Shown: positions 26,146-50,877 of the stretch, in pieces | Layout: the number at the start of each line of letters is the position of its first letter | Position numbering within the stretch: the stretch's first letter is position 1 | NCBI GenBank assembly: GCA_035506535.1 | Contig: DATJPE010000011.1 | Location: 1 to 50,877 of the forward strand | Length of the DNA stretch: 50,877 bases | Reading direction: 5' to 3' | Source: Actinomycetes bacterium | GTDB lineage: Bacteria > Actinomycetota > Actinomycetes > DATJPE01 | Notes under the pieces: generated by a model | Seen by the model: the letters and a program-made list of their open reading frames with translations, nothing else | Told to the model about the DNA's origin: nothing | The model's database searches: none | Program-made: the position numbers and the translations under genes

Positions 26146-26155
26146 AGCCACCCCG

Positions 26156-27290: not shown

Positions 27291-27296
27291 TACTCT
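27291..27296 (+). promoter_or_regulatory. Leaderless -10 element TACTCT for cmk
   Basis: TACTCT followed by six bases and ATG 27303 fits the leaderless pattern seen elsewhere in the window. Confidence 0.6.
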
Positions 27297-27302
27297 CGGG
27301 AC

Positions 27303-29440: not shown

Positions 29441-29453
29441 AACCCCACTCCGG

Positions 29454-29459
29454 TAGAGT
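29454..29459 (+). promoter_or_regulatory. -10 element TAGAGT for tRNA-Pro
   Basis: TAGAGT lies 23 bp before the tRNA 5' end, just after the der stop. No strong -35 is seen. Confidence 0.5.
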
Positions 29460-29482
29460 GGCGCGCGCCCGCTCGAGGGTGC

Positions 29483-29556
<74 letters not shown>

Positions 29557-29574
29557 CGGCAGCTCCAGAGTCGC

Positions 29575-29605
29575 CGAGGGCCGGACCCGTGAGGTCCGGC
29601 CCTCG
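29575..29605 (+). terminator. Hairpin terminator after tRNA-Pro
   Basis: A perfect 13-bp GC-rich stem (CGAGGGCCGGACC and complement) encloses the 5-nt loop CGTGA. No T-run follows, as is common for actinobacterial terminators. Confidence 0.8.
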
Positions 29606-29766
29606 ACGCGTCGACGGCGTCCGTTCCGGTGTCACCCCGTATCAAGGCCCGAGCCCGCGTGCTCACCTGTCGGGGAAGATCGTCGGCCGAGGGCGCTCAG
29701 GGTGTCCCGGGAGGGGCGGGGGATGGGACACGCGGACGTGCCCGCGCGGACGACGTGGGCGCTGCC

Positions 29767-32263: not shown

Positions 32264-32471
32264 CGTAGAGGCCTGTGGCGATGGCGAGGACGACGAGGGC
32301 GAAGCACACGGCCGCGCCGGTCAGCCGGACCACACGGGTCACCGGTGGAGCGTCCTGGGCCGAGGAGACCCCGACCAGGCCGAGCGCGAAGAACACGACG
32401 ATGCCGACTCCGCAGACCAGGCCGCCCAGGAGGGCCTGACTCAGTGCGCTGACGTTCACCCACTCAGACAT
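32247..32471 (-). CDS. Small two-helix membrane protein downstream of Pit
   Basis: The 74-residue protein has two hydrophobic segments (ALLGGLVCGVGIVVFFALGLVGV and LTGAAVCFALVVLAIATGLYVIL). Start ATG 32471 overlaps the end of the Pit gene by 8 bp, so translation is probably coupled. The 3' end overlaps the convergent flavoprotein gene by 17 bp. No known domain; likely an accessory subunit of the transporter. Confidence 0.72.
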   Translation of the reverse strand: MSEWVNVSALSQALLGGLVCGVGIVVFFALGLVGVSSAQDAPPVTRVVRLTGAAVCFALVVLAIATGLYVILTD

Positions 32472-33621: not shown

Positions 33622-33757
33622 AGTGATCACTATGGCATGCGCCTCCGTGGCCACGAGGGCCAGAAGTCCCGACTCGTTGGGTAGCCTCGAGGAGGAACCG
33701 GGACGATCGCCGGACCGCGAGTGGAGGACCCAGGGCGTGGAGGTCCAGGAGACGCAC

Positions 33758-34354
33758 GTGCAGACGACGCGCGTCCTCACCGTCCCTAACGCCTTGTCCC
33801 TCCTGCGCCTGCTCGCCATCCCGCTGTTCCTCTGGCTGGTCCTCGTCCCGGAGGCGGACGGGTGGGCGGCCCTCGTCCTCGTCCTCAGCGCGTTCACCGA
33901 CTACCTCGACGGCTACCTGGCCCGGCGCTGGCACCAGATCTCCCGGGTGGGGCAGCTGCTGGACCCCGTCGTCGACCGGCTCTGCACGGTCGCGACCTTG
34001 CTCGGGCTGGCGATCCGCGACATTGTGCCCTGGTGGTTCGTGGCTCTCCTGGTCTTGCGTGACGTCATGCTGGTCGCCACCGGCCCGACGTTGCGCCGCC
34101 TCGGCCTGACCGCCCTGCCGGTCCACTTCCTGGGCAAGGCGGCGACCTTCAACCTGCTGATCTCGTTCCCGCTCCTGCTGCTGGGCGCCGGGTCAGGGAC
34201 GGCGGCGGCGATCGCCTCGACGTTCGGGTGGGCCTTCGCTATCTGGGGTGCCGCGCTGTACTGGTGGTCGGGCCTGCTCTACGTCGAGCAGGTGCGCCGG
34301 CTCGCCGGCGGACCCGCCCGCGTGGTCGGGGCCCCGACGGGAGGTGTCGCGTGA
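33758..34354 (+). CDS. CDP-alcohol phosphatidyltransferase
   Basis: A ~198-residue membrane enzyme has the full active-site pattern DX2DGX2ARX8GX3DX3D in [20 protein letters not shown] and the following LDPVVDR. It could be a phosphatidylglycerophosphate, phosphatidylinositol-phosphate or cardiolipin synthase; I cannot tell which. GTG 33758 has AGGAG six bases upstream; GTG 33737 is the alternative. It overlaps the next gene by 4 bp. Confidence 0.88.
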
Positions 34355-36849
34355 AGGCCGTCGTGATGGCCGGCGGCGAGGGGACCAGGCTGCGCCCGAT
34401 GACGGCGACGCTGCCCAAGCCGCTGCTGCCCGTGGTGCACAAACCGATCATGGAGCACGTCCTGGACCTGCTGAAGCGGCACGGGATGACCGACACCGTC
34501 GTCACCGTGCAGTTCCTCGCCTCGATCCTGCGCAACTACTTCGGGGACGGCGAGGAGCTCGGCATGCGGCTGACCTACTCCTCGGAGGAGACGCCGCTCG
34601 GGACGGCGGGCAGCGTCAAGCGGGCCGAGGCCGAGCTGCGTGACGGCAGCTTCCTCGTGATAAGCGGGGACGCGCTCACCGACATCGACCTGTCCGCCCT
34701 CGTGGACTTCCACCGCACCAAGGGTGCGATGGTCACGGTGTGTCTGACCCGCGTGGCCGACCCGGTGGAGTTCGGGATCACCATCACCGACGACGAGCAC
34801 CGGGTGCAGCGCTTCCTCGAGAAGCCGTCATGGGGGCAGGTGTTCAGCGACACCGTCAACACCGGTATCTACGTCATGGAGCCTGAGGTCTTCGACCACG
34901 TCCCGGAGGGTCAGGTGGTCGACTGGTCGGGCGACGTCTTCCCGAAGCTGCTGGCCGACGGGCTGCCGGTGCTCGGTCACGTCAGCGACGGGTACTGGGA
35001 GGACGTGGGGACTCTCGAGTCCTACCTGCGCGCCCAGGTCGACGTCCTCCTCGGCAAGGTCAAGGTCGTCATGCCCGGTTTCGAGGTCTCGCCCGGGGTG
35101 TGGGTGGGTGAGGGCTCGGACGTCGACCCGGACGCGACGGTCAAGGGGCCGGTGTACATCGGCGACTACTCCAAGGTCGAGGCGGGCGCCGAGCTGCGCG
35201 AGTTCACCGTCCTGGGTAGCAACGTCGTCGTGCGCGAGGGTGCCTTCGTCCATCGCAGCGTCATCCACGACAACGTCTTCGTGGGACCGCACACCAACAT
35301 CCGCGGCTGCGTCGTCGGCAAGGGGACGGACCTGATGCGCGCCAGCCGGGTCGAGGAAGGCGCGGTCATCGGCGACGAGTGCGTCGTCGAGGAGGAGGCG
35401 ATCATCTCGCCCGGGGTGAAGGTCTACCCCTTCAAGACGATCGAGGCCGGCGCTGTCGTCCACGACAGCGTGATCTGGGAGAGCCGGGGCACCCGCTCCC
35501 TGTTCGGGCCACGCGGGATGTCGGGCATCGTCAACGTCGAGATCACTCCGGAGCTGGTCGTGCGGCTCGTCTCGGCGTACGCCTCGACCCTGCGCAAAGG
35601 CGCGGCGGTGACGGTGAGCCGGGACCACTCCCGCGCCGCGCGCGCCCTCAAGCGGGCCGCGATCGCGGCTTTCAACGCCTCCGCGATAGACGTCCGTGAC
35701 CTCGAGGTCGCCCCGCCACAGGTCACCAGGCTCACCGCGGTCCGCCAGGCCGGAGCCGGTGGCCTGATGATCCGGACCACGCCCGGCGTCCCCGACTCCG
35801 TCGACATCGTCTTCCTCGACGACACCGGCGCGGACCTCGCCCCCTCGGCTCAGCGCAAGGTCGAGCGCATCCTGCAGCGGGGGGAGTTCCGGCGCGCCTT
35901 CCCGGGCGAGATCGGGGACCTGTCCTTCCCGCCTCGTGCCGTGGAGTCCTACGTCCAGCACCTGACCGGGGCCGTCGACATCTCGGGTATCGGGGCCGGT
36001 GAGGTCAAGCTCGTCGTCGACTGCGCGGGTGGGGTTGCGTCGTTGATTCTTCCGACGCTGCTCAGCCGGGTGGGGGTCGACGTCCTCACCGTCAACGCCC
36101 GCCTCGACGACGCCAACCCGACCGAGAGCCCGGCCGAGCGCCGCGAGGCCCTAGCCCGTCTCGGGGGGCTGGTGGCCTCCTCCCGAGCCGCCTTCGGAGT
36201 CCGCTTCGACCCGGTCGGCGAGCGGCTGAGCATCGTCGACGACACCGGACACCCGATCGAGGACGAACGGGCGCTGCTGGTCTTCCTCGACCTCATCGCT
36301 GCCGAGCGGCGCGGCAAGAAGGTCGCGCTGCCTGTGAGCACGACGCGGGTGGCGGAGCAGGTGTGCCGCTTCCATGGCGTCGAGGTCGAGTGGGTGACCA
36401 CCGCCCCGGACTCCATCGTCCGCGCCGCGGCATCGCCCGACCTCGCCGGCGCGGGGGACGGACGAGGCGGGTACGTGGTCCCCGAGGCGAGCCCGGCCAT
36501 CGACGGCAACGCCGCGTTCCTTCGCCTGCTCGGCCTGGTCGCGCGCACCCGCCTGACCCTCTCCCAGATCGAGGCCCGGATCCCCACGGCGCACGTCCTT
36601 CGCGCCGACGTGGAGACCCCGTGGGCGGCGAAGGGCCAGGTGATGCGCTCTGTCATCGAGGCCGCCGGCGGGCGCGGTCTCGACACCACCGACGGGGTCC
36701 GGGTCGTGGAGGACGACGGCCGCTGGGCGCTCGTCCTGCCCGACCCGTCGCAGGCGATCACCCACCTGTGGGCCGAGGGCGGCACCGAGGACGAGGCGGC
36801 CGACCTGCTCCAGGAGTGGGCGAGCGTCGTCGCGCGGGCCGGCCGGTAG
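34351..36849 (+). CDS. Mannose-1-phosphate guanylyltransferase-like enzyme fused to a degenerate phosphomannomutase domain
   Basis: This 832-residue fusion protein starts at GTG 34351 after GGGAGG. Residues 1-235 are a sugar nucleotidyltransferase ([26 protein letters not shown]). Residues ~250-370 are left-handed beta-helix hexapeptide repeats. Residues ~380-832 follow the phosphohexomutase fold, but the four catalytic loops are changed: RTTPGVP replaces TASHNP near 475, DPVGER replaces DGDGDR at 620-625, PEASPAIDG sits at the sugar loop (711-719), and PDPSQA replaces RxSGTEP (797-802). The second half is therefore probably regulatory or structural. Homologues of this length are common in actinomycetes. 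Confidence 0.88.
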
Positions 36850-36852
36850 CAT
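36847..36852 (+). promoter_or_regulatory. -10 element TAGCAT for gcvH
   Basis: TAGCAT begins within the stop codon of the preceding gene and lies 47 bp before the gcvH start, giving a leader of about 40 nt. Confidence 0.4.
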
Positions 36853-36899
36853 CGGCGCCCGGCGAACGCTCGACCGACGACGACCTCTCGGAGCAGCCC

Positions 36900-37277
36900 G
36901 TGCACCCGGACGACCTCAAGTACACCGCCGAGCACGAGTGGGTGCGCCCCGAGGGCGCCCACGTCCGCGTCGGCATCACCGACTACGCCCAGGAGCAGCT
37001 CGGCGACGTCGTCTTCGTCTCCCTCCCGGGCGTCGGGGACCAGGTGAGCGCGGGGGAGTCCTGCGGGGAGGTCGAGTCCACCAAGAGCGTGAGCGACATC
37101 TACGCCCCGGTGAGCGGCGTCGTCACCGCCCGGAACGAGACGCTCTCGGACTCACCCGACCTGGTCAACTCCGACCCCTACGGCGGGGGCTGGCTCTTCG
37201 AGATCGAGCCTGCCGACCCCGCCGCCACGGACGCGCTGCTCGACGCGGCCGCCTATCGAGGCCAGATCGGGGAATGA
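36900..37277 (+). CDS. gcvH: Glycine cleavage system H protein
   Basis: The 125-residue lipoyl carrier has lipoylation Lys62 in [15 protein letters not shown] and the family frame [18 protein letters not shown]...[20 protein letters not shown]. It shuttles the aminomethyl group from GcvP to GcvT; gcvT is not in the window. Start GTG 36900 with GGAG upstream. It precedes garA-ftsR, a conserved actinobacterial order. Confidence 0.95.
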
Positions 37278-37308
37278 ACCCTCGACCCTCGATCTGAAGT
37301 CGAGGGTT
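37277..37308. promoter_or_regulatory. Dyad CTCGA-N7-TCGAG in a larger inverted repeat (garA promoter region)
   Basis: Immediately after the gcvH stop is a perfect 10-bp inverted repeat AACCCTCGAC/GTCGAGGGTT with a 12-nt spacer. Nested in it is CTCGA-N7-TCGAG at 37288-37304. The same nested dyad with the same 7-base spacer lies at 39148-39164 upstream of the second MerR gene. It could also end gcvH transcription. Confidence 0.6.
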
Positions 37309-37343
37309 GGCTCCTCCGTTCGGCCACCGCGATCGAGGCCCGG

Positions 37344-37373
37344 TTGACCTGCGACCCGGTGGCCGCCTAGGTT
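37344..37373 (+). promoter_or_regulatory. Promoter of garA-ftsR
   Basis: TTGACC (37344-37349), an 18-bp spacer and TAGGTT (37368-37373). The -35 begins 40 bp after the dyad ends. The slightly long spacer would suit activation by a MerR-family protein. Confidence 0.62.
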
Positions 37374-37457
37374 TCCTCGAGCCCGGATGGAGAGTTTCCG
37401 GGTGCCGTCGTGGGGATGGCGGGACGCGTCGATGGCGGGCGAGGAGGGACCGGGGCG

Positions 37458-37940
37458 ATGGCGTCGCAGCAACCTGGGTCGCCCGAGCAGGGGCCGCCGG
37501 AGCAGGAACCGCCGGAGCCGGAACCACGCGACCACACCTCCACCCTCAACCTGGGGGCGCTGGGACCCGACGCCGACGTGGAGGCGCGGCTCGAGGCCGA
37601 GGCGCCGGAGGAGGTCCAGGCGCTCGCACCCGGCACGGCCCTGCTCGTCGTGCAGCGGGGGCCCAACGCGGGGTCGCGCTACCTGCTGGACTCCGCTGTC
37701 ACGAGCGTCGGGCGCCACCCCGACTCCGACATCTTCCTCGACGACGTGACCGTCTCCCGCCGGCATGCCGAGTTCCGCCGGGACGCCTCGGGATTCCGGG
37801 TGGTCGACGTCGGCAGCCTGAACGGGACCTATGTCAACCGGCACCGCATCGACGACGTGGTACTCGCGGGCGGGGACGAGGTCCAGGTGGGCAAGTACCG
37901 CCTGCTCTTCCTCGCCGGCGTCGAGGCGGGCACATCGTGA
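37458..37940 (+). CDS. garA: FHA-domain regulator GarA
   Basis: The 160-residue protein has a Pro/Glu-rich N-terminus and an FHA domain (~70-155) with GRHPDSDIFLDDVTVSRRHAEFRR and VDVGSLNGTYVNR. GarA/OdhI switches the TCA cycle and glutamate metabolism when Ser/Thr kinases phosphorylate its N-terminal ETTS motif. Here the corresponding segment is RDHTSTLNLG, a variant. Start ATG 37458 has GAGGAGGG upstream. It overlaps ftsR by 4 bp. Confidence 0.92.
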   Translation: MASQQPGSPEQGPPEQEPPEPEPRDHTSTLNLGALGPDADVEARLEAEAPEEVQALAPGTALLVVQRGPNAGSRYLLDSAVTSVGRHPDSDIFLDDVTVSRRHAEFRRDASGFRVVDVGSLNGTYVNRHRIDDVVLAGGDEVQVGKYRLLFLAGVEAGTS

Positions 37941-38665
37941 GCGCCACCGTTCCCGCCCGGGCCTACATGAGCATCGGGGACGTGCTCGCCCGGCTACGCC
38001 CCGACTTCCCCGACGTGACGATCAGCAAGATCCGCTTCCTCGAGTCCGAGGGGCTGGTCGAGCCGCAGCGCACCGCGTCCGGCTATCGGAAGTTCACCCA
38101 CGAGGACCTGCAGCGGCTGCGGTACGTGCTCGCTGCCCAACGCGACCAGTACCTGCCGCTCAAGGTGATCCGTGAGCACCTGGACGCCATGGACCGCGGC
38201 CTGCAACCGCCCGACACCCCCGGCGCACGCCCCCGGGTGCCGGTGTCCCTCGTGGCCGAGGACGGCCTGCCCACCGCCGAAGCGTTCGCCAGGGACCCCT
38301 CCGAGCTGCGCCTGTCCCGGCAGGAGCTGCTCGTCGCCGCCGGTGCGAGCGAGCAGCAGCTGAGCGAGCTGGAGAGCTACGGCCTGGTGCACGCGAGGGG
38401 CAACCACTACGACGGGGACGCCCTCGCGGTGACGAAGGTCGTCGCGGAGATGGCCGTCTTCGGGCTCGAACCGCGTCACCTTCGCGCCTACCGCGCGGCG
38501 GCCGACCGCGAGGTCGGGCTCGTTGAGCAGGTCGTCGCGCCGCTTCGCCGGGGGCGCGGCGCCGACGCGGCCGGGCGTGCCGACGAGGTGCAGCGCGAGC
38601 TCGCCGCCCTGTCTGTGCGGCTGCACGCCGCACTCGTCAAGTCGGGTCTTGCCTCGCGGGCGTAG
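37937..38665 (+). CDS. ftsR: MerR-family regulator FtsR
   Basis: This 242-residue protein has an N-terminal MerR winged helix (MSIGDVLARLRPDFPDVTISKIRFLESEGLVEPQRTASGYRKF, ~11-55) followed by a dimerisation helix and a C-terminal domain with no metal-binding Cys. The mycobacterial orthologue is Rv1828; the Corynebacterium one activates ftsZ. Start GTG 37937 overlaps the garA stop by 4 bp. The dyad at 37288 is a candidate autoregulatory site. Confidence 0.92.
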   Translation: MSATVPARAYMSIGDVLARLRPDFPDVTISKIRFLESEGLVEPQRTASGYRKFTHEDLQRLRYVLAAQRDQYLPLKVIREHLDAMDRGLQPPDTPGARPRVPVSLVAEDGLPTAEAFARDPSELRLSRQELLVAAGASEQQLSELESYGLVHARGNHYDGDALAVTKVVAEMAVFGLEPRHLRAYRAAADREVGLVEQVVAPLRRGRGADAAGRADEVQRELAALSVRLHAALVKSGLASRA

Positions 38666-38668
38666 GCT
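38663..38668 (+). promoter_or_regulatory. Leaderless -10 element TAGGCT
   Basis: TAGGCT plus six bases leads to ATG 38675. The element overlaps the ftsR stop codon. Confidence 0.62.
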
Positions 38669-38674
38669 CGCGTC

Positions 38675-39145
38675 ATGCAGGAGCTCGACGTCGTCGGCGT
38701 CCGTGTCGAGATGCCGTCCAACAACCCGATCGTGCTGCTCCGCGAGGTGGGCGGCGACCGCTACCTGCCCATCTGGATCGGGACGGGGGAGGCGACGGCC
38801 ATCGCCAACGCCCAGCACGGCCTGGTCCCGCCCCGGCCGCTGACCCACGACCTGATGCGCGACCTGCTCGAGGCGCTCGGCCAGAAGCTGCTGCAGGTGC
38901 GGATCACCTCCCTGGAGGACGGGGTCTACTACGCGGTTCTCGTGCTGAGCGGCGGTGCCGAGGTGAGCGCCCGCCCCTCTGACGCGATCGCCCTGGCCCT
39001 GCGCACTGGCTCGCCGATCTTCGGGGCGGAGGAGGTGCTGGCCGAGGCCGGGATCGCCATCCCGGACGACCAGGAGGACGAGGTCGAGAAGTTCCGGGAG
39101 TTCCTGGACCAGGTCTCGCCCGAGGACTTCTCCGAGCAACCCTGA
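38675..39145 (+). CDS. Bifunctional nuclease family protein (DUF151)
   Basis: The 156-residue protein has the DUF151 blocks MQELDVVGVRVEMPSNNPIVLLREVGGDRYLPIWIG, EATAIANAQHGLVPPRPLTHDL and SARPSDAIALALRTGSPIF. Family members have RNase/DNase activity reported in plants; the bacterial role is unclear. It lies between ftsR and the second merR gene in most actinomycetes and has its own leaderless promoter. Confidence 0.9.
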   Translation: MQELDVVGVRVEMPSNNPIVLLREVGGDRYLPIWIGTGEATAIANAQHGLVPPRPLTHDLMRDLLEALGQKLLQVRITSLEDGVYYAVLVLSGGAEVSARPSDAIALALRTGSPIFGAEEVLAEAGIAIPDDQEDEVEKFREFLDQVSPEDFSEQP

Positions 39146-39147
39146 CC

Positions 39148-39164
39148 CTCGACCTCCGGTCGAG
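39148..39164. promoter_or_regulatory. Dyad CTCGA-N7-TCGAG (second copy)
   Basis: This is the same arms and spacer length as at 37288-37304, again starting just after a stop codon. It ends 40 bp before the -35 of the second MerR gene (39 bp intervene at the first copy). Confidence 0.6.
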
Positions 39165-39180
39165 ACTTTCACGGGATCGA

Positions 39181-39198
39181 GTGGCGTGTCGACGCCAC
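39181..39198. repeat. Inverted repeat GTGGCGT-N4-ACGCCAC
   Basis: A perfect 7-bp inverted repeat with spacer GTCG lies just before the -35 of the second merR gene. It is a candidate operator. Confidence 0.55.
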
Positions 39199-39204
39199 CG
39201 GTCG

Positions 39205-39233
39205 TTGACGCGGGCCGGTGCCCGCCCTAGCGT
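39205..39233 (+). promoter_or_regulatory. Promoter of the second merR gene
   Basis: TTGACG (39205-39210), a 17-bp spacer and TAGCGT (39228-39233). The predicted leader is ~125 nt; I see no known riboswitch in it. Confidence 0.65.
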
Positions 39234-39365
39234 GACTCGACGGCGAATCCCACGCCTGTCGTTCACCGCCTGTCTGGTTCGGTTGTCTCGGGCAGCAGGT
39301 CGGACCCGCTGGACGACGGCGCCGGGGTGGGGTGCGCCGGCTTCCCCACGAGTTCGGAGGTTCCC

Positions 39366-39971
39366 GTGACGGGAGACCCGCAGGACCCCACGGCACCGGC
39401 GCCGGTCGACGAGGGCGCGCGCCTGCGAGCCGGGGAGCAGGGGCTGCTCTTCGACGCCGCCGTCACCACCCTGCCGGCCGACGTGGGCTACCGCGGCCCG
39501 ACGGCCTGCGCGGCCGCGGGCATCACCTACCGCCAGCTGGACTACTGGGCGCGAACCGGTCTGGTGGAGCCGAGCATCCGCCCGGCGCACGGGTCGGGCA
39601 CCCAACGGCTGTACTCCTTCACCGACATCCTCGTCCTCAAGATCGTCAAACGGCTGCTGGACACCGGGGTGTCCCTGCAGCAGATCCGCAGCGCCGTCCA
39701 GCACCTAAGGGACCGGGGCGTGGCGGACTTGGCGCAGATCACCTTGATGAGCGACGGAGCGAGTGTCTACGAGTGCACCTCGGCCGACGAGGTCATCGAT
39801 CTCGTCCAGGGCGGGCAGGGCGTCTTCGGCATCGCCGTGGGACGCGTCTGGCGCGAGGTCGAGGGCTCCCTGGCGTCGCTTCCCGGAGAGTCCACCGGGC
39901 ACGAGGAGCTCACCGCGGAGCACCCGGGCGACGAGCTGGCGGCGCGCCGGCGTACCCGCGCCACCGGCTGA
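39366..39971 (+). CDS. MerR-family regulator, second copy
   Basis: This 201-residue protein has a winged helix in YRGPTACAAAGITYRQLDYWARTGLVEPSIRPAHGSGTQRLYSFTDILVLKIVKRLLDTGVSLQQI (~45-110). An effector-free C-terminal part ends in Arg residues. Start GTG 39366 has GGAGG five bases upstream. It always sits between the DUF151 gene and gcvP in this order, suggesting, but not proving, a link to glycine metabolism or to ftsR targets. Confidence 0.9.
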   Translation: MTGDPQDPTAPAPVDEGARLRAGEQGLLFDAAVTTLPADVGYRGPTACAAAGITYRQLDYWARTGLVEPSIRPAHGSGTQRLYSFTDILVLKIVKRLLDTGVSLQQIRSAVQHLRDRGVADLAQITLMSDGASVYECTSADEVIDLVQGGQGVFGIAVGRVWREVEGSLASLPGESTGHEELTAEHPGDELAARRRTRATG

Positions 39972-39995
39972 CCGGCCGGGCGCCGTCGCGCGGCT

Positions 39996-40001
39996 TAGAC
40001 T
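39996..40001 (+). promoter_or_regulatory. -10 element TAGACT for the gcvP leader
   Basis: TAGACT lies just upstream of the riboswitch, with predicted initiation near 40008. Confidence 0.5.
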
Positions 40002-40017
40002 AAGCGGGCCGACGACC

Positions 40018-40122
40018 CCGCGCGGGAGAGTCCCCTCACAGCCGGTGAGGGGCGCCGAAGGAGCAACCTCCCCGGAATCTCTCAGGCGAGCAGGACCGGG
40101 CGGACGAGGCGCCTCTGGAGCG
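40018..40122 (+). ncRNA. Glycine riboswitch
   Basis: The conserved blocks of the glycine aptamer are present in order: GGGAGAGT (40024-40031), GGCGCCGAAGGAGCAA (40050-40065), CCGGAATCTCTCAGGC (40072-40087), AGGACCG (40092-40098), and a closing GACGAGG...CTCTGGAG. It looks like one full aptamer. After it, GC-rich palindromes at 40133-40147 and GCCCGCGCGCGGGC near 40155-40170 could form the expression platform before the gcvP ribosome site at 40184. Expected to switch on gcvP with glycine. Confidence 0.92.
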
Positions 40123-40193
40123 GGCACGTGACAGAGGGGGAACCTCTCGTGCGCGCCCGCGCGCGGGCCGGACCCGATCCGCCGGAGGCTCCC

Positions 40194-43067
<2,874 letters not shown>

Positions 43068-43071
43068 CGCT

Positions 43072-43077
43072 TAGGGT
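43072..43077 (+). promoter_or_regulatory. Leaderless -10 element TAGGGT for the type III PKS operon
   Basis: TAGGGT followed by six bases and ATG 43084, right after the gcvP stop. Confidence 0.62.
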
Positions 43078-43083
43078 CAGGGG

Positions 43084-44169
43084 ATGGCCGGACCGGTGAG
43101 CGTCGTCGCGGGGGTGGGTACAGCGCTCGGCGCCCACTCCTACCCGCAGGCCGAGATCACCGACGCGTTCGTCCACTACGTCCTGGGGGCCGACGGCGAG
43201 CCACGCACGGCCGCGGCGCTGCGGCGCTTCCACGACAACAGCGGGGTGCAGACCCGTCACCTGGCGCTGCCGCTGGCGGCCTACCCGGGGCTGGACGGGT
43301 TCACCGGCGCCAACGCCGCCTGGCGGGAGGTCGCTGTCGGCATGGGGGCCGGCTGCGCGCGTGAGGCGCTGTCGCGGGCCGGGCTGGTCGCGGCCGACGT
43401 CGACCTGGTGGTGTCCACCACGGTGACCGGCGTGGTGGTGCCCTCCCTGGACGCGCTGCTCGTCCCCGTGCTCGGTCTGCGCGACGACGTCAAGCGGGTC
43501 CCGCTGTTCGGGCTCGGCTGCGTCGCCGGCGCGGCGGGCATCGCCCGCATCCACGACTACCTCTCCGGGCATCCCGATGGGGTGGCTCTGCTGATCGCGG
43601 TGGAACTGTGCTCGCTCACCGTCCAGCGCGACGACACCTCGATGGCCAACCTGGTCGCGAGCGGGCTGTTCGGCGACGGCGCGGCGGCAGTGGTCCTCGT
43701 CGGCGAGCGCCGCGCTCGGGCGCTGGGGCTGACCGGCCCCGCCGTGCTCGCCAGCCGCTCGCGCTTCTACGAGGACACCGAGGCCGTCATGGGCTGGGAC
43801 GTCGGGGGGAGCGGCTTCAAGGTGGTCCTCGCCCCCACGGTCGCCGACGTCGTCCGCACGCATCTCGGGACCGATGTCAAGGGCTTCCTCGCCGATGAGG
43901 GCCTCGAGGTGCACCAGCTGGTGCGCTACATCGCGCATCCCGGTGGGCCCAAGGTCATCGACGCGGTGACCGAGGCGCTGGGCCTGGCCCCGGACGCGCT
44001 CGCCGTGACCCGTACATCGTTGCGGCAGAAGGGGAACCTGTCCTCCGCGTCGGTGCTCCACGTCTTGCGCGACGCCCTGGACGCCTCGCCCCCGGGGTCG
44101 GGGGAGCCGGCCCTGCTCATGGCGATGGGCCCGGGCTTCTGCGCGGAGCTGGTCCTGCTGCAGTGGTGA
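43084..44169 (+). CDS. Type III polyketide synthase, alkylresorcinol/alkylpyrone type
   Basis: This 361-residue chalcone-synthase-like enzyme has the complete triad C146 (LFGLGCVAGAAG), H285 (YIAHPGGPK) and N318 (QKGNLSSASVL), and the C-terminal GPGFCAELVLLQW. Actinobacterial members extend fatty acyl starters with malonyl units to alkylresorcinols or alkylpyrones. The next genes, a methyltransferase and a flavin hydroxylase, match the srsA-srsB-srsC order of Streptomyces griseus phenolic-lipid synthesis. Confidence 0.92.
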   Translation: MAGPVSVVAGVGTALGAHSYPQAEITDAFVHYVLGADGEPRTAAALRRFHDNSGVQTRHLALPLAAYPGLDGFTGANAAWREVAVGMGAGCAREALSRAGLVAADVDLVVSTTVTGVVVPSLDALLVPVLGLRDDVKRVPLFGLGCVAGAAGIARIHDYLSGHPDGVALLIAVELCSLTVQRDDTSMANLVASGLFGDGAAAVVLVGERRARALGLTGPAVLASRSRFYEDTEAVMGWDVGGSGFKVVLAPTVADVVRTHLGTDVKGFLADEGLEVHQLVRYIAHPGGPKVIDAVTEALGLAPDALAVTRTSLRQKGNLSSASVLHVLRDALDASPPGSGEPALLMAMGPGFCAELVLLQW

Positions 44170-44199
44170 GCCGCGTCCGGGCGGAGGAGGGTTGACCAC

Positions 44200-44739
44200 G
44201 TGAGCTCGCAGGGCTGGTACGTGCTGCTGCTGCTCGCCGTCGCGGGCGAGCGGCTGGCCGAGCTGGTCCTGTCCCGGCGCAACGCCGCCTGGTCGCTCGC
44301 CAGGGGAGGGGTCGAGACAGGGTTCTCGCACTATCCCGCCATGGTGGCCCTGCACACGGGTCTGCTCCTGGGCTGCCTCGGCGAGGTGCTCATCGCCCAC
44401 CGGCCGTTCATCCCGGCCCTCGGCTACCCGATGCTCGCCCTCACCCTCGCCGCTCAGGGGCTGCGGTGGTGGTGCATCGCCACCCTGGGACCGCGCTGGA
44501 ACACCCGGGTGATCGTCGTGCCCGGCATGGCGCCGGTCACCTCGGGGCCGTACCGCTTCGTGCGCCACCCGAACTACGTCGCGGTCGTCGTCGAGGGCAT
44601 CGCCCTGCCGCTCGTGCACACGGCGTGGATCACCGCGCTGGTGTTCAGCGTGTGCAACGTGCCCCTGCTGCGTACCCGGCTTCGCGTGGAGGAGGCCGCC
44701 CTGGCCACCTTGCCGGCCGGTCCCCGGACGCTCTCGTGA
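44200..44739 (+). CDS. Isoprenylcysteine carboxyl methyltransferase-family enzyme
   Basis: A 179-residue membrane protein of the ICMT family has RHPNYVAVVVEGIALPL and GPYRFVRHPNY, the SAM-binding core, with several hydrophobic helices. It starts at GTG 44200 after GGAGGAGG. By context it is the SrsB counterpart, an O-methyltransferase for alkylresorcinols. It overlaps the hydroxylase gene by 4 bp. Confidence 0.88.
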   Translation: MSSQGWYVLLLLAVAGERLAELVLSRRNAAWSLARGGVETGFSHYPAMVALHTGLLLGCLGEVLIAHRPFIPALGYPMLALTLAAQGLRWWCIATLGPRWNTRVIVVPGMAPVTSGPYRFVRHPNYVAVVVEGIALPLVHTAWITALVFSVCNVPLLRTRLRVEEAALATLPAGPRTLS

Positions 44740-45776
44740 GCGTCGTCGACCTCGTCGTGGCAGGAGGCGGTCCGGTCGGCCTGACGACCGCGTTGTACGC
44801 CCGCGCGGCGGGCCTTCGGGTCCTCCTGGTAGAGCCTCGGGCCGGGGCCGTGGACAAGGCCTGCGGCGAGGGTGTCATGCCCAGCGCGGTCCTGCGGCTG
44901 GCCGCGCTCGGGATCGGGCTGCCCGGCCGGCCGTTCCGGGGGATCACCTACATCGACGCGGCCGGGCGCTCGGTGACCGCCGACTTCCCGCGCGGCCCCG
45001 GGCAGGGGGTGCGCCGGGTGGCGCTGCACGACGCCTTGCGCACGGCCGCGCACGCTGCCGGGGTGGTTCGGGTGGTCGGCGCCGTGACGGCCGTCCGCCA
45101 GACGAGGACGCAGGTGCGCGTCGAGGCCGACGGGACGACGTACGTCGCCGCGTATCTCGCGGCCGCGGACGGGCTGCACTCGGGCATCCGCCGCCAGCTC
45201 GGCCTGGACCGGCCGGTCCGGCGGGCTCGCCGCTACGGCTTGCGCCGCCACTTCCTGGTGGAGCCGTGGTCGGACCACGTCGAGGTGCACTGGTCGGACC
45301 ATGCGGAGATGTACGTGACGCCGGTGGGCCACGACGTGGTCGGGATCGCCGTCCTGACCGGCCGCCGGGGGAGGACCTACGCGGAGTGGCTGCGCGACTT
45401 CCCGATCGTCGCCGACCGGCTGCGCGGCACCACGGCGGTCTCTCCCGTGCTCGGCGCGGGCCCGCTCCGCCAGCGCGCCCGGGCGGTCCGCGCTGGTCGC
45501 GTGCTCCTCGTCGGGGACGCCGCCGGGTACGTCGACGCGCTGACCGGCGAGGGCCTGGCGGTCGGGATCCACGGGGCGCAGGCCCTCGTCGACGCCGTCG
45601 CGGCCGACCGGCCCGAGACCTATCCGCGGGCGTGGCGGGACCTGACCAGGACCTCGAGGCTGCTCACCGAGACCCTGCTGCGCACGACCAGCGTCCCGGT
45701 GCTGCGTCAGGCCCTGGTCCCCTCCGCGCGGGCGCTGCCTTGGGTGTTCCGTGCCGCGGTCGCTCAGCTCGCCTGA
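44736..45776 (+). CDS. FAD-dependent hydroxylase (SrsC-like)
   Basis: This 346-residue flavoprotein has GGGPVGLTTALYARAAGLRVLLVE at the N-terminus, CGEGVMPSAVLRLAALGI, the middle DGLHSGIR motif and the GDAAGYVDALTGEGLAVGI FAD-ribityl motif. These are typical of group A aromatic hydroxylases and geranylgeranyl reductase relatives. Start GTG 44736 overlaps the methyltransferase stop. By context it hydroxylates the methylated phenolic lipid to a hydroquinone. Confidence 0.88.
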   Translation: MSVVDLVVAGGGPVGLTTALYARAAGLRVLLVEPRAGAVDKACGEGVMPSAVLRLAALGIGLPGRPFRGITYIDAAGRSVTADFPRGPGQGVRRVALHDALRTAAHAAGVVRVVGAVTAVRQTRTQVRVEADGTTYVAAYLAAADGLHSGIRRQLGLDRPVRRARRYGLRRHFLVEPWSDHVEVHWSDHAEMYVTPVGHDVVGIAVLTGRRGRTYAEWLRDFPIVADRLRGTTAVSPVLGAGPLRQRARAVRAGRVLLVGDAAGYVDALTGEGLAVGIHGAQALVDAVAADRPETYPRAWRDLTRTSRLLTETLLRTTSVPVLRQALVPSARALPWVFRAAVAQLA

Positions 45777-45850
45777 GCCGGATCCGGATGAACCGGACGC
45801 GACCGGCGACGGCCATCAAGGGCAGCTCCCGGCCGGTCGATGAATGCCCC

Positions 45851-46261
45851 ATGGACACCTGCGTCCGGTGCGGCGCCGGGCTGCCCGCCGGGGCCGCCTG
45901 GTGCTCGCTGTGCCACACACCGCGCGGTGCCGCCCCTGCCGCGGCGCCAGCGCCCACCCGCGCTAACGCTCCCGTCCCCGCCGCCCTCGTCCAGCGCACC
46001 CGCTACGGGCACTCCGAGGTCACCTTCGGCCTCACCGGACGCATCGTGATGACCGTGCTGCTCCTGGCCCCGCTCGGTCTGTTCGCCTTCGCCATCGCCG
46101 CCGGCTTCGGCATCGTCGGCATGGGCATCTGGGCCGTGGTCGTCGTGCCGTGGGGGCTGCGTGACATCTGGAAGTCCTCGCACCGCCGCGGGCTGACCTC
46201 CGCGGTCCCGCCACCGGCCGTGTCCGCCGAGCGCTTCGGCGGCGGCCCCTCCAACACCTGA
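45851..46261 (+). CDS. Zinc-ribbon membrane protein
   Basis: A 136-residue protein begins MDTCVRCGAGLPAGAAWCSLC, a four-Cys zinc ribbon, followed by a Pro/Ala linker and two membrane helices (IVMTVLLLAPLGLFAFAIAAGFGIVGMGIWAVVVV). An in-frame ATG at 45788 would add 21 residues without a better ribosome site. Function unknown. It is the last rightward gene before the dif-like site. Confidence 0.7.
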   Translation: MDTCVRCGAGLPAGAAWCSLCHTPRGAAPAAAPAPTRANAPVPAALVQRTRYGHSEVTFGLTGRIVMTVLLLAPLGLFAFAIAAGFGIVGMGIWAVVVVPWGLRDIWKSSHRRGLTSAVPPPAVSAERFGGGPSNT

Positions 46262-46303
46262 CGAAGCCCGGCGATGGCCCCGGGGGACGGCCTGTTCTCC
46301 TTT

Positions 46304-46331
46304 ACCTTACATAATGTCCATTATCGGCGTT
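46304..46331 (-). other. dif: dif-like XerCD recombination site
   Basis: Read on the minus strand, the site has an 11-bp left arm AACGCCGATAA, a 6-bp centre TGGACA and an 11-bp right arm TTATGTAAGGT. The E. coli dif has GCGCATAA and TTATGTTAAAT at the matching places, and the CCGATAAT...ACATTATGT core agrees with the actinobacterial dif consensus as I remember it. The site is intergenic between convergent genes and touches only the methyltransferase stop. Gene strand bias flips here. Confidence 0.85.
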
Positions 46332-47091
46332 ACCACCATGGGGTCGCGCCCGTCAGGCGGGCCCGGTGGGCGCTGGTGTGGTAGCGCAGGGTCGCGAGTC
46401 CCTCGACCGCCAGCCGGTCGTGCAGCGCGGCGACCTCCTCGAGCAGGACCTGACGCTCGTCCGACGCCATGAGCGCGACATAGCTGCGTGAGGCGACCAG
46501 CCCGACCAGCTCCTCGCGGGTCAGGCGCTGGGCGTTCGGGAAGTCGGCCGCCTCCAAGGGCGCGAACTGCGGGCCCACGACGATCTCCTCCGCCCACGGC
46601 CGGCTGGCCTTGGCGTCCTCCTCACCGATGAGCTCGGCCAGGCCCGCCCCGAGCGGGTCGTCGGTGCGACGCAGGTTCCAGACCAGGCCGAGCACCCCGC
46701 CTGGTCGCAGCACCCGGGCGGCCTCCGCCGAGGCGGCGACCGGGTCGACCCAGTGCCAGGCCTGGGCGTAGGTGACCGCGTCCACCGAGGCGTCGGCGAG
46801 CGGCAGCACCTCCCCGCCGGCTCGCACCCCCGCGGCGGTCGGGACCGCGTCGTGCAGACGGGCGAGCATCGGTTCGGAGGGCTCGACGGCCACTACCTCG
46901 TGCCCGGCCGCCAGGAGCACCCTGGAGAGCTTCCCGGTGCCCGCGCCCACGTCGGCGACCCGCTTCGGTCCGGGGCCGACCAGCCAGCGGACCGCGTCGA
47001 GCGGGTACTCCGGCCGTGAGCGGTCATAGACCTCGGCGACCGCTCCGAAGGAGACCGCCCTGGCTCGGTGCTCGTCTTCAGAACGGCCCAT
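46330..47091 (-). CDS. Class I SAM-dependent methyltransferase
   Basis: The 253-residue protein starts RAVSFGAVAEVYDRSRPEYP and has SAM motif I VADVGAGTGKLSRVLLAAG, followed by VVAVEPSEPMLARL, VDAVTYAQAWHWVDP and LRPGGVLGLVWNL, as in the UbiE/methyltransferase-11 family. The substrate is unknown. Start ATG 47091 has TATCGT seven bases upstream, so the transcript is probably leaderless. It is divergent from rbpA. Confidence 0.88.
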   Translation of the reverse strand: MGRSEDEHRARAVSFGAVAEVYDRSRPEYPLDAVRWLVGPGPKRVADVGAGTGKLSRVLLAAGHEVVAVEPSEPMLARLHDAVPTAAGVRAGGEVLPLADASVDAVTYAQAWHWVDPVAASAEAARVLRPGGVLGLVWNLRRTDDPLGAGLAELIGEEDAKASRPWAEEIVVGPQFAPLEAADFPNAQRLTREELVGLVASRSYVALMASDERQVLLEEVAALHDRLAVEGLATLRYHTSAHRARLTGATPWW

Positions 47092-47098
47092 GCGCGTG

Positions 47099-47104
47099 AC
47101 GATA
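47099..47104 (-). promoter_or_regulatory. -10 element TATCGT for the methyltransferase gene
   Basis: On the minus strand TATCGT is followed by seven bases and ATG 47091. Confidence 0.5.
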
Positions 47105-47112
47105 CAAACCGC

Positions 47113-47139
47113 GGGAACACCGACGGCGGGGCATTCGTT
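47113..47139 (+). promoter_or_regulatory. Sigma-R/SigH-type promoter before rbpA
   Basis: GGGAAC (47113-47118), exactly 18 bases, then GTT (47137-47139) match the -35/-10 pattern of the thiol-stress sigma factors SigR/SigH. Transcription would start near 47147, about 48 nt before rbpA. In Streptomyces rbpA is a known SigR target. Confidence 0.68.
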
Positions 47140-47194
47140 GTGACGGGTGAACCAACCATTCCTGCCGGCCGTGTCACGGCGTTGGGAGGACACC

Positions 47195-47623
47195 ATGGGC
47201 GAGGCCATGCGGGGCACCCGGCTCGGTGCGACCAGTTATGAGTCGGACACGGGCGTCGAGCTCGCGCCGCGCCGCTGGAGCAGGTATGACTGCCCGAACG
47301 GCCACAGCTTCGAGGTGCCCTTCAGCGTCGAGGCCGAGGTTCCCTACACCTGGGAGTGCCGCTTCTGCCGGGCGGAGGCGATCCTGCGTGACGGCGAGGA
47401 GCCCGAGGCGCACAAGCACCGTCACCAGCGCACGCCGTGGGACATGCTCCTCGAACGGCGCTCGGTGGACGACCTGGAGGCCCTCCTCGACGAGCGGCTG
47501 ACGCTGCTGCGTGACCGAGGTGGCGCCGGTGTCGTGCTGCACGAGGCCCGGGAGGTCGTCGCGGAGCGCGGTTCGCGCCGGCGGGCGAAGGTCCCCGGCG
47601 GGCCGGACCGCAAGAGCGCCTGA
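47195..47623 (+). CDS. rbpA: RNA polymerase-binding protein RbpA
   Basis: This 142-residue protein activates holoenzymes with principal sigma factors. It starts MRGTRLGATSYESDTGVELAPRRWSRYDCPNGHSFEVPFSVEAE and has the zinc-binding Cys/His region YDCPNGH...WECRFC, the basic linker and the sigma-interacting helix TPWDMLLERRSVDDLEALLDERL. It is about 20-30 residues longer than typical RbpA (111-124), with the extra, charged stretch before the conserved RKSA end. Start ATG 47195 with GGGAGG upstream. Confidence 0.94.
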   Translation: MGEAMRGTRLGATSYESDTGVELAPRRWSRYDCPNGHSFEVPFSVEAEVPYTWECRFCRAEAILRDGEEPEAHKHRHQRTPWDMLLERRSVDDLEALLDERLTLLRDRGGAGVVLHEAREVVAERGSRRRAKVPGGPDRKSA

Positions 47624-47642
47624 CCCCTCCCCCTGGTCAGGC
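47618..47642. terminator. Bidirectional hairpin containing both stop codons of rbpA and fxsA
   Basis: GCCTGACC (47618-47625) pairs perfectly with GGTCAGGC (47635-47642) around a 9-nt pyrimidine-rich loop. Each arm carries the TGA stop of one of the two convergent genes. Confidence 0.65.
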
Positions 47643-48095
47643 CGGCGGCGGCGGCTCGTCCTCGCGGATGATCTCGCCCCGGATGACGCGGTCGTCGTCG
47701 ATGCGCGGGCTGCGGGTCCACACGGTGAAACCGCCCGGACCCGTGACCGCGGTGAAGCGTCGGACGAACCACGACGCGACGGCACCGCGCAGCAGCACCC
47801 GCACCAGCGGGACCAGCAGCAGGAGCCCGATGACGTCCGAGATGAACCCGGGCCAGATCAGCAGGATCCCCGCCGCGAACAGCAGCGCCGAGTCCCCGGC
47901 CGCCCGACCCTGGGCTCCGGTCTGGGCGGCACGCATCCAGTCCCGCCCCGTGCGTCGCAGTACGTAGATGCCGAGGACGGCCGCGGCCGCGAGGAGTACG
48001 ACCGTCCACCAGCCGATGAGCTTCGCGACGACGACGATCGACGCGATCTCCACCAGCGGGGCGACGACGAACAAGAAGAACGCGAACAGGCTCAC
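47637..48095 (-). CDS. fxsA: FxsA-family membrane protein
   Basis: The 152-residue protein has three to four membrane helices (LFAFFLFVVAPLVEIASIVVVAKLIGWWTVVLLAAAAVLGIYVLR) and the family block AAGILLIWPGFISDVIGLLLLVP. FxsA lowers phage T7 exclusion in E. coli; its role here is unknown. Start GTG 48095 overlaps the ppm1 stop by 4 bp. It is the last gene of lnt-ppm1-fxsA. Confidence 0.9.
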   Translation of the reverse strand: MSLFAFFLFVVAPLVEIASIVVVAKLIGWWTVVLLAAAAVLGIYVLRRTGRDWMRAAQTGAQGRAAGDSALLFAAGILLIWPGFISDVIGLLLLVPLVRVLLRGAVASWFVRRFTAVTGPGGFTVWTRSPRIDDDRVIRGEIIREDEPPPPA

Positions 48096-48856
48096 GCCGG
48101 GCTCCGCTCCTTGGGGCGCAGGGCACGGGCGACCTGGCCGGCGCGGTGCCGGGTCCCCCACACGGTGACTCGCCACAGCGCCTCACCGACGATGGCGCGG
48201 TTCATCTTGCTCGCGCCGAGCTCGCGCTCGACGAAGGTGATCGGGACCTCCACGACGCGAAGGCCGCGCTGCACGGCGCGCCAGACCAGGTCGACCTGGA
48301 AGCAGTAGCCCTGCGACGCGACGTCGTGCAGGTCCAGCTGGCGCAGCGCGGAGGCGCGGAACGCGCGGAACCCGCCGGTCGCGTCGTGGACGGGGATGCC
48401 GAGAGCGATCCGGGCATAGGCGTTGCCACCGCGGGAGAGAAGCGCCCGGCGGCGCGGCCAGTTCTCCACCGACCCGCCGGAGACCCAGCGGGACCCGAGC
48501 GCGACGTCGGCGCCGTGGTCGATCGCGGCGAGAAGCAGGGGCAGGTCCTGGGCGCGGTGCGAGCCGTCGGCGTCCATCTCGACGACGACGTCGTAGCCCT
48601 GCGCCATCGCCCACGCGAAGGCGTCGAGGTAGGCCGCACCCAGACCCTGCTTGACCTGGCGGTGCCGTACGTGCACGGCGGGGTCGTGCGCTGCCAGCTT
48701 CTCGGCGAGCTCGCCGGTCCCGTCCGGGCTGCTGTCGTCGACCACGAGGACGTCGGCGTCAGGGACCGCGGCGCGCACGCGCGCGACGCTGCGTTCGAGG
48801 TTCATCACCTCGTCGTAGGTGGGCACGCAGACCAGTACGCGCGGCCCCGAGCTCAT
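48092..48856 (-). CDS. ppm1: Polyprenol-phosphate mannosyltransferase (dolichol-phosphate-mannose synthase type)
   Basis: A 254-residue GT2 enzyme has VCVPTYDEVMNLERSV, VVDDSSPDGTGELAE and the metal motif VVEMDADGSHRAQDLPLLL. It moves mannose from GDP-mannose to polyprenyl phosphate. No membrane domain is attached; in mycobacteria it works with the neighbouring Lnt. Start ATG 48856 overlaps the lnt stop by 4 bp. Confidence 0.93.
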   Translation of the reverse strand: MSSGPRVLVCVPTYDEVMNLERSVARVRAAVPDADVLVVDDSSPDGTGELAEKLAAHDPAVHVRHRQVKQGLGAAYLDAFAWAMAQGYDVVVEMDADGSHRAQDLPLLLAAIDHGADVALGSRWVSGGSVENWPRRRALLSRGGNAYARIALGIPVHDATGGFRAFRASALRQLDLHDVASQGYCFQVDLVWRAVQRGLRVVEVPITFVERELGASKMNRAIVGEALWRVTVWGTRHRAGQVARALRPKERSPA

Positions 48857-50433
48857 GGCGTCGATGTCGGCTCCTCTCGTCGGCGGCCGCCCAGGACCAC
48901 GGCGCCCACGCCCACGAGGACGAGCAGCAGCTCCACGGTGTTCCCGAGCCGGTCCGCCAGCGTACGGCTATCGGAGAGCCGCACCTGCTGCACCACCGTC
49001 GCAGGGGTGAACAGCTGGGTCCGCTGGACGACGCGGCCGTCCGGGGCGATGGCCGCGGAGATGCCCGACGTGGCGGCGATGAGCACCCAGCGGCCGTGCT
49101 CGACCGCCCGCAGCCGGCTCATGGCGAGCTGCTGGCGGGTCTCCGGGGTGTGCCCGAAGGTCGCGTTGTTGGTCTGCACGGCGATCAGCTGGGCACCGGC
49201 GTCGACGGTGCGGCGGACCAGGGTGTCGTCGGAGACCTCGAAGCAGATGACGTCGCCGACCCGCGCCGGGCCGATCTGCAGCACACCGGGCCCGGCCCCC
49301 TTGGCGAAGTTCCGGCTGACCCGGTCCACGGCGGAGGAGAAGAAGCGGGCCAGCCTGCGCATGGGGATGTACTCGGCGAAGGGCACTGGGTGCTGCTTGA
49401 CGTACACCGGACCGGGACCGGGTGTCGCGCTGAGCAGCGGACCCCACACGATGCCCATGTTGAACAGGGTGTTCGGGTCCAGCGGGTTGGTGACGACCGC
49501 GCCGACGAGGACGGGTACGCCGACCGCGTCGACCGCCTCCTGGATCAGCTCGCGGGCCTGCGGGTCGGCGTACGGGTCGACGTCGCTGGCGTTCTCCGGC
49601 CAGATGACCAGGTCCGGTCGGGCGACGCGCCCGGCCGCGACCGCGGCCGCGAGACGCTGCGTCTCGGCCACGTGGTAGCGCAGGACCTGCTCCTGCTGGG
49701 TCTCGATGTCCAGGCCGATCCGGGGGACGTTGCCCTGGACGAGCGCGACGGTGACCGCCCGACCGCGAGCCACCGGCGCCGGGACGGCGGCCGCCGCGAG
49801 AGCGAGCACCACCAGCGCGGCCAGGCAGCCGGCGGCCGGGGCGACGCGGTGCCGGCGTGCCTCGACCAGCCCGACGGCGAGCAGCATGCCGATGAGGGCG
49901 ACGACGAAGGTCACCAGCGGCGCCCCGCCGAGGGAGGCGACCCGCAGCCAGGGCGCGTCGGCCTGGGAGAAGGCGAGCCGGCCCCAGGTGAAGCCGCCGT
50001 ACGGCCACCGGCCGCGGACCGCCTCCTCCACCACCCAGACCGCGGCTCCCCCGACGACCGCGCCGGGTGCCGGCAGCCGTGAGCACAGGGCCACTCCCAC
50101 GCCCAGGGGCGCGAAGTAGAGCGCCTGCACCACGGCGAGGATCAGCCACGGGACCGGGCCGACGTAGACGCCCGTCCAGTGCAGCAGGGGGACCATCTCC
50201 CCGAGGCCGAAGGCCAGCCCGACGAGCGCGGCCGCTCGCCAGCGCAGCCCGCGGACCGCCAGCGCGAGCGCCGCGACGCACAGCGGGGCGAGCCACCACA
50301 GGCCGTACGGGTCGAAGGCGAAGGTGAGCGCGACACCGGCCAGGGCCCCGGTCAGCGGGCGTGGCCACCGTCGGCGCGGGCGGGTCGTGGGGGGGACGAC
50401 GGGCCGCGGCGTGTCCGTGGTCGCCGTGCTCAC
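48853..50433 (-). CDS. lnt: Apolipoprotein N-acyltransferase
   Basis: This 526-residue protein has about seven N-terminal membrane helices and a periplasmic nitrilase-type domain. Its triad lies in LVIWPENASDVD (Glu), YVKQHPVPFAEYIP (Lys) and DVICFEVSDD (Cys). It N-acylates lipoproteins. Start GTG 50433 is seven bases after TACCGT; the longer open frame upstream would cross the divergent promoter. It is first gene of lnt-ppm1-fxsA. Confidence 0.93.
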   Translation of the reverse strand: MSTATTDTPRPVVPPTTRPRRRWPRPLTGALAGVALTFAFDPYGLWWLAPLCVAALALAVRGLRWRAAALVGLAFGLGEMVPLLHWTGVYVGPVPWLILAVVQALYFAPLGVGVALCSRLPAPGAVVGGAAVWVVEEAVRGRWPYGGFTWGRLAFSQADAPWLRVASLGGAPLVTFVVALIGMLLAVGLVEARRHRVAPAAGCLAALVVLALAAAAVPAPVARGRAVTVALVQGNVPRIGLDIETQQEQVLRYHVAETQRLAAAVAAGRVARPDLVIWPENASDVDPYADPQARELIQEAVDAVGVPVLVGAVVTNPLDPNTLFNMGIVWGPLLSATPGPGPVYVKQHPVPFAEYIPMRRLARFFSSAVDRVSRNFAKGAGPGVLQIGPARVGDVICFEVSDDTLVRRTVDAGAQLIAVQTNNATFGHTPETRQQLAMSRLRAVEHGRWVLIAATSGISAAIAPDGRVVQRTQLFTPATVVQQVRLSDSRTLADRLGNTVELLLVLVGVGAVVLGGRRREEPTSTP

Positions 50434-50440
50434 GACGATC

Positions 50441-50446
50441 ACGGTA
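50441..50446 (-). promoter_or_regulatory. -10 element TACCGT for lnt
   Basis: On the minus strand TACCGT plus seven bases leads to GTG 50433, so the transcript is near-leaderless. Confidence 0.5.
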
Positions 50447-50482
50447 CGCGAGCAACCACTGCCCGACTCCGGCCCTGGGCAA

Positions 50483-50488
50483 TAGCGT
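50483..50488 (+). promoter_or_regulatory. Leaderless -10 element TAGCGT for the decarboxylase gene
   Basis: TAGCGT plus exactly six bases leads to ATG 50495, 36 bp from the divergent lnt -10. Confidence 0.6.
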
Positions 50489-50494
50489 GGCCTC

Positions 50495-50877
50495 ATGGCT
50501 CTCAAGCACCCGCAGGCGACCACGCGCCCCCACCGAGACCTGCCCGGCGACCCGATGCTGGTCAGCGACTCCATCGTCGCCCGCCGCCGGCTGCTCGCCC
50601 ACGGCACCAGTCCCGACGTGGCCTATCAGCTGGTCCACGACGAGCTGATGATCGACGGGAACGCCCGGATGAACCTGGCGACCTTCGTCACGACCTGGAT
50701 GGAGCCGCAGGCCGAGCGGCTGATGGCCGAGTGCCTCGACAAGAACATGATCGACAAGGACGAGTACCCGCAGACGGCCGAGCTCGAGGTGCGCTGCGTG
50801 GAGATCCTCAGCCGGCTGTGGCACGCCCCGGACGCCGCGACCGCAACGGGGTGCTCCACGACCGGGTCGAGCGAGGC
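50495..50877 (+). CDS. gad: Glutamate decarboxylase, N-terminal part (cut by window end)
   Basis: The first 127 residues have the family-specific block [20 protein letters not shown], then [24 protein letters not shown] and WHAPD...[10 protein letters not shown]. This is the PLP-dependent enzyme that turns glutamate and a proton into GABA and CO2. The PLP lysine lies beyond the window. The gene starts at ATG 50495 with a leaderless promoter. Confidence 0.93.

Follow-up and report, generated by a model that had tools for sequence, protein, structure and literature searches.

The window analysed here comprises 50,877 nucleotides and spans contig 11 of a draft assembly (102 contigs, 3.35 Mb, 96.5% complete) from end to end; its features are summarized in Table 1. 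The genome is the sole representative of its family and order among the genomes compared. A 28-bp sequence lies between two convergent genes, of which the left one stops at 46261 and the right one, encoding a methyltransferase, has its stop codon at 46330–46332, so that the 28-mer and this stop codon share 2 bases. A preliminary description of the window had assigned the XerCD arm structure and the convergent setting to this sequence. Both were confirmed, with the 11+6+11 layout read on the minus strand; the XerC and XerD arms are alike at 6 of 11 positions. The strand layout described for the flanks was reproduced in part. On the left, 27 of 31 genes run rightward (rough gene calls), and the rRNA genes named in that description amount to a partial operon on this contig. 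On the right, 4 of 5 genes run leftward (rough gene calls); an rbpA-like gene, which is missing from that description, lies on this side and runs away from the site.

An rRNA operon as close to the terminus as that at the left end of the contig seems unusual. The three genes in a row at 43084–45776, left of the site (Table 1), possibly form a small biosynthetic cluster.

Table 1. Features of the window and their coordinates.
Feature	Position	Strand	Remarks
23S rRNA (3' half, cut by contig end) and 5S rRNA	1..1731		about 44.6 kb from the site, reading toward it
Left flank	1801..46303	+	GGGGGAG: 22 copies toward the site, 1 away (at 4509)
xerD, tyrosine recombinase	20813..21754	+	345 bits against a cut-off of 330 (TIGR02225); 24.5 kb from the site
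parA-, scpA-, and scpB-like genes, in line with xerD	20813..24729 (xerD included)	+	from translations; 22–26 kb from the site
Glycine riboswitch	40013..40108		directly upstream of the gcvP-like gene
gcvP-like gene	40128..43067		identified by reading
DpgA-related type III polyketide synthase-like and isoprenylcysteine methyltransferase-like genes (both below cut-off), FAD-binding oxidoreductase gene	43084..45776		in a row, left of the site
Putative dif site, 28 bp	46304..46331	-	XerC arm AACGCCGATAA, centre TGGACA, XerD arm TTATGTAAGGT
XerD-side arm	46304..46314	-	left end of the 28-mer
XerC-side arm	46321..46331	-	right end; its 2 first bases lie within the methyltransferase stop codon
Right flank	46332..50877	-	GGGGGAG: 2 copies toward the site (47627, 50046), 0 away
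rbpA-like gene	within 47147..47623	+	XerC side, strand opposite to the site, as in relatives
GT2 glycosyltransferase gene (ppm1-like)	48092..48856	-	adjoins lnt
lnt (apolipoprotein N-acyltransferase)	48853..50607	-	XerC side, same strand as the site, as in relatives

The core pattern CGATAATNNNCATTATGTAA occurs once in the window when up to 3 mismatches are allowed, and it was found at this tolerance in 0 of 100 shuffled sequences. The search for a second copy that had been suggested in the preliminary description gave the outcome expected of dif: the 28-mer is unique at ≤3 mismatches in its own assembly, a 96.5% complete draft. The reversed 28-mer, used as a control, had 0 matches in the same genome.

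Alignment with actinobacterial dif sites likewise supported the earlier reading, since 24 of the 28 bases are identical to the dif of F. alni given in PMC3025954, which is itself a prediction. With Frankia alni as the seed, that paper (Kono et al. 2011) predicted a dif for 66 of 66 actinobacterial genomes with a single chromosome, and it notes that none of these predictions had experimental confirmation. Compared with a 145-locus consensus, the window site is identical at 23 of 28 positions; 115 of these loci were retrieved with a pattern that itself fixes most site positions. L058, L075, L113, and L141, which had short flanks or two hits, were left out of the locus alignment. In 30 loci from the class sample described below, the pattern-free positions 4, 5, 15, 16, and 24 showed conservation of 1.35, 2.0, 1.53, 1.58, and 1.43 bits, respectively; the flanks of the same loci had a mean of 0.20 bits and a maximum of 0.73 bits, and the outermost arm bases (1–3 and 26–28) were weakly conserved at 0.17–0.55 bits. 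At position 24 the window site carries A, which it shares with 4 of 30 and 7 of 115 loci; most loci carry C.

A class-wide sample of 296 genomes contained the core pattern (≤1 mismatch) in 237, with more than one match in 11 of these (read by eye), and the reversed-pattern control matched 4 of the 296 (counted by eye). It was absent from 59 class genomes, 26 of which belong to one family, f19; leaving this family aside, 236 of 269 genomes have the pattern. This family is represented by 27 genomes of a single genus (5.8–11 Mb; loci L256–L280 are included), and the one pattern match found among them is a poor sequence. In the one-contig members of f19, dnaA lies in the middle of the contig (at 4.50 of 9.17 Mb in G018 and 3.63 of 7.08 Mb in G172), where it would be on the linear chromosomes of Streptomyces, presumably the genus in question. 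In a sample of the whole phylum, the pattern matched 125 of 296 genomes, and control matches occurred there too.

The chromosomal position of the site was determined in relatives. Thirty-nine genomes with the match on contig C1 were chosen by eye among the matches listed, leaving out G177, and removal of 7 multi-contig genomes gave 32; most genome sizes were rounded to 0.1 Mb, and each single contig was treated as a circle. The site lay at a median of 0.483 of the circle from dnaA, and at 0.42 or more in 31 of the 32. The exception was G058, at 0.28; its dif retains the lnt neighbour despite this position, which suggests unequal replichores or an assembly problem. In the genome under study, a 102-contig draft, the window site presumably lies opposite its own origin, on a chromosome that is presumably circular. 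The statement in the preliminary description that the site marks the replication terminus holds for the layout of the terminus region, which is as in relatives, and is approximate with regard to the exact terminus. Replication terminates near dif and not necessarily at dif, according to the accessible parts of two papers (PMC3025954, PMC13342612), and "terminus region" is therefore the safer wording.

A GC-skew switch at the site, which the preliminary description had proposed as a check and whose absence within a few kb it had named as a refutation, did not materialize in the window: over the 10 kb left of the site the skew was -0.008, over the 4.5 kb right of it +0.007, and over the whole left flank +0.014. 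There was also no clean skew switch at dif in the complete genomes G029 and G123, in which dif lies at 0.48–0.49 of the circle from dnaA and which were sampled in 20 stretches of 20 kb each (about 13% and 7% of the genome, respectively); the result in the window was therefore not counted against dif. The genome papers on Corynebacterium and Actinoplanes, in their accessible parts, describe a skew that fits two replichores (PMC2830990, PMC3022926, PMC3219685, PMC3350403, PMC3364876), and the test is therefore not useless across the group. The accessible text of PMC3025954 gives a significant correlation of dif with skew shift-points in Proteobacteria and Firmicutes, and a figure legend there extends the correlation to all three phyla once genomes without visible skew are omitted.

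The genes surrounding the site were compared with those of relatives. We located lnt in 30 of the 32 one-contig genomes, and its best match lay on the XerC side and on the dif strand in 29 of the 30. In the remaining one, G029, the best match lies on the other strand at a distance of about 153 kb from dif, and a second, nearly as good copy is 6.4 kb away; with this nearer copy the placement is the same in 30 of 30. The distance from lnt to dif was 49 bp to 120 kb, with a median of 9.3 kb (30 genomes, nearer copy used in G029). Neighbours were also searched in 161 loci, many of which have short flanks and not all of which are independent. On the XerC side were found rbpA (32 of the 32 loci in which it was detected, opposite strand), lnt (23 of 23, same strand), the ppm1-like gene (22 of 23, same strand), and fxsA (4 of 4, same strand), and gcvP was on the XerD side in 5 of 5 loci, on the opposite strand. 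The arrangement in the window agrees for all five. Because the placement of lnt, rbpA, ppm1, fxsA, and gcvP is nearly constant across relatives, the dif neighbourhood, including the polarity of dif, appears to be old in the class. Among the papers listed by one literature search, none was seen to describe a linkage of dif with lnt or rbpA.

Two other candidates for conserved neighbours were rejected. The methyltransferase of the window had 1 weak match in the 161 loci, on the other side of the site. The xerD gene was 14 kb to 2.2 Mb away from dif and on the opposite side from lnt in 21 of 30 genomes; the small genomes of family f26 have xerD close to dif, at 14–17 kb, and the window has it at 24.5 kb. 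In 14 of the 161 loci (L037, L044, L051, L060, L073, L079, L081, L082, L094, L101, L108, L115, L129, and L213), genes resembling tyrosine recombinases, with 29–35% identity to the window XerD, lie about 0.5–4 kb from dif, and these may mark elements inserted beside it.

In regards to the partner proteins, a XerC-like protein is encoded on contig 35, with XerC as its best family (296 bits, below the cut-off of 335); its gene is downstream of an ORF that by reading alone is DprA-like. Contig 83 encodes an FtsK comprising alpha, motor, and gamma domains. In an alignment with two solved FtsK chains, of Pseudomonas (2iut) and E. coli (2ius), the helix of the gamma domain reads GFAKAGRLMDLME here, GYNRAARMIEAME in the former, and GYNRAARIIEQME in the latter. 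The residues N, R, and E of this helix contact KOPS; two of these three differ here, and the difference would fit a changed motif.

The heptamer GGGGGAG came to light when two complete relatives were screened for words with a strand bias. In 12 genomes, the two discovery relatives included, it occurred 118:4 toward:away from dif within about 10 kb on each side and held the top rank among 15,515 heptamers. A held-out set of 20 genomes, some families of which are shared with the first 12, gave a ratio of 285:6 within at most 20 kb on each side, and the motif again ranked first. The 32 genomes combined, covering 16 family codes, gave 403:10; family f4 was weak, with 1 copy in G289. A further 119 loci, whose species may overlap with the 32 genomes, gave 578:10 and the first rank of 16,222 heptamers. 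Of the 25 copies in the window, 24 face the putative dif, the best point for the switch falling between 45368 and 47626. Among the 4313 plus-biased heptamers of the window's left flank, GGGGGAG shares rank 2 with GGGCTGG, after CTGCGCG; the window alone would therefore not single the motif out.

We considered other origins of this bias and other motifs. A coding-strand origin was rejected on the basis of rough gene calls in 29 high-GC genomes, since the ratio was 98:2 toward dif inside genes read away from dif and 90:4 where no gene was called. The bias is thus independent of the direction of transcription. An origin in ribosome-binding sites was rejected as well, with 7 copies located ≤20 nt upstream of called starts. 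The six other permutations of G6A were less polar (at most 141:55 in the 32 genomes; GGGGAGG gave 194:44 in the 119 loci). E. coli KOPS, GGGNAGGG, was weakly polar at 120:72 in the 32 genomes and 6:7 in the window's left flank. Of two further motifs, the SRS motif GAGAAGGG gave 34:6 toward:away yet is absent from that flank, and the Lactococcus motif GAAGAAG gave 95:114.

In stretches sampled along the chromosome, G212 showed a clear gradient, with GGGGGAG at 70:0 over 12 stretches and 13 copies per 20 kb at dif compared with 2–7 elsewhere. G029 and G123 had uneven profiles that turned up near dnaA, and some far stretches of G123 were opposite in sign. In G018 and G172 of family f19, the motif points outward from dnaA (84:25 over 25 stretches), though that genus lacks the dif pattern.

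Taken together, the likeness to the F. alni dif, the uniqueness of the site, the genes for XerD, a XerC-like protein, and an FtsK with a gamma domain, the occurrence in the class, the position in relatives, the neighbourhood, and the motif switch uphold the earlier reading of the 28-mer as dif, and we are highly confident in identifying it as this actinobacterium's chromosomal dif. It is very probably an ordinary site of a known kind. By analogy with the known dif/Xer pathway, FtsK at the division septum would be oriented by polar G-rich motifs facing the site from both sides and would move terminus DNA until dif is reached. Its gamma domain would then activate XerD at dif, and XerC and XerD, binding the 28-mer, would recombine the two dif copies of a chromosome dimer and so resolve it into two monomers. 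GGGGGAG would presumably be the sequence read by FtsK.

Several other explanations of the 28-mer were weighed. It might be the dif-like attachment site of an integrated element, a phage or plasmid exploiting XerCD, rather than the chromosomal dif. The tyrosine recombinase-like genes beside the matching site in 14 of 161 loci of other species lend this some plausibility, but the site is single-copy in its own genome, the right flank consists of ordinary-looking chromosomal genes (methyltransferase, rbpA, fxsA, and lnt), and the neighbourhood and polarity match those of other families. We therefore regard an attachment site as very improbable. Slightly less probable still is a chance AT-rich and partly palindromic stretch, such as terminator-like DNA. 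The location between convergent genes is where such DNA could be found; against it, even at 3 mismatches no match appeared in the 100 shuffles, and the five pattern-free positions are conserved at 1.35–2.0 bits against the flank mean of 0.20.

A genuine dif that is now an unused relic would be consistent with the A at position 24, where most loci carry C. However, the conserved core is otherwise intact, both recombinase genes and the FtsK gamma domain are present, and the polar motifs have been retained, all of which make a relic about as improbable as a chance stretch. The reading as the chromosomal dif is thus preferred. This reading locates the terminus region in a draft genome whose order has no other member among the genomes compared. 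In the relatives sampled, GGGGGAG and the lnt/rbpA neighbourhood mark this region more clearly than GC skew does, and these markers would aid the orientation of other draft genomes. We lean slightly toward a broader proposal, in which GGGGGAG is the KOPS of Actinomycetes, read through an FtsK gamma DNA-contact helix that differs from those of E. coli and Pseudomonas, and in which the dif region (lnt, ppm1, and rbpA on the XerC side, in constant polarity) was fixed anciently in the class, so that dif could be placed in drafts without GC skew. Literature searches linking the motif to FtsK, or KOPS to Actinobacteria, returned in the accessible text of the sources no KOPS sequence named for the class.

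The actinobacterial dif sites of Kono et al., as far as the accessible part of PMC3025954 describes them, share with the window site the length of 28 bp, the 11+6+11 layout, and the single copy. The window site differs from that of F. alni in its centre (TGGACA against TGCACA) and in its XerD arm (TTATGTAAGGT against TTATGTCAAGT). The dif of Actinoplanes sp. SE50/110 similarly has 4 mismatches to the F. alni dif; according to the accessible text of PMC3364876, it lies almost opposite oriC with the support of GC skew, whereas skew was of no help for the window site in its draft genome. In regards to the motif, E. coli KOPS are, like GGGGGAG here, polar and G-rich and switch at dif. GGGGGAG is already known as a polar motif in Corynebacterium: the accessible parts of corynebacterial genome papers use G(A/T/C)GGGGGA and (T/C)GGGGGAG to locate dif (PMC2830990, PMC3022926, PMC3219685, PMC3350403), PMC2830990 credits these architecture imparting sequences to Hendrickson and Lawrence (2006), and the chromosome of C. 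aurimucosum is given as carrying 856:61 copies of them. These sequences resemble the motif described here in being G-rich, polar, and biased to the leading strand. In contrast to them, GGGGGAG was found here without prior knowledge, near dif (within 10–20 kb), and across 16 family codes as well as in the window.
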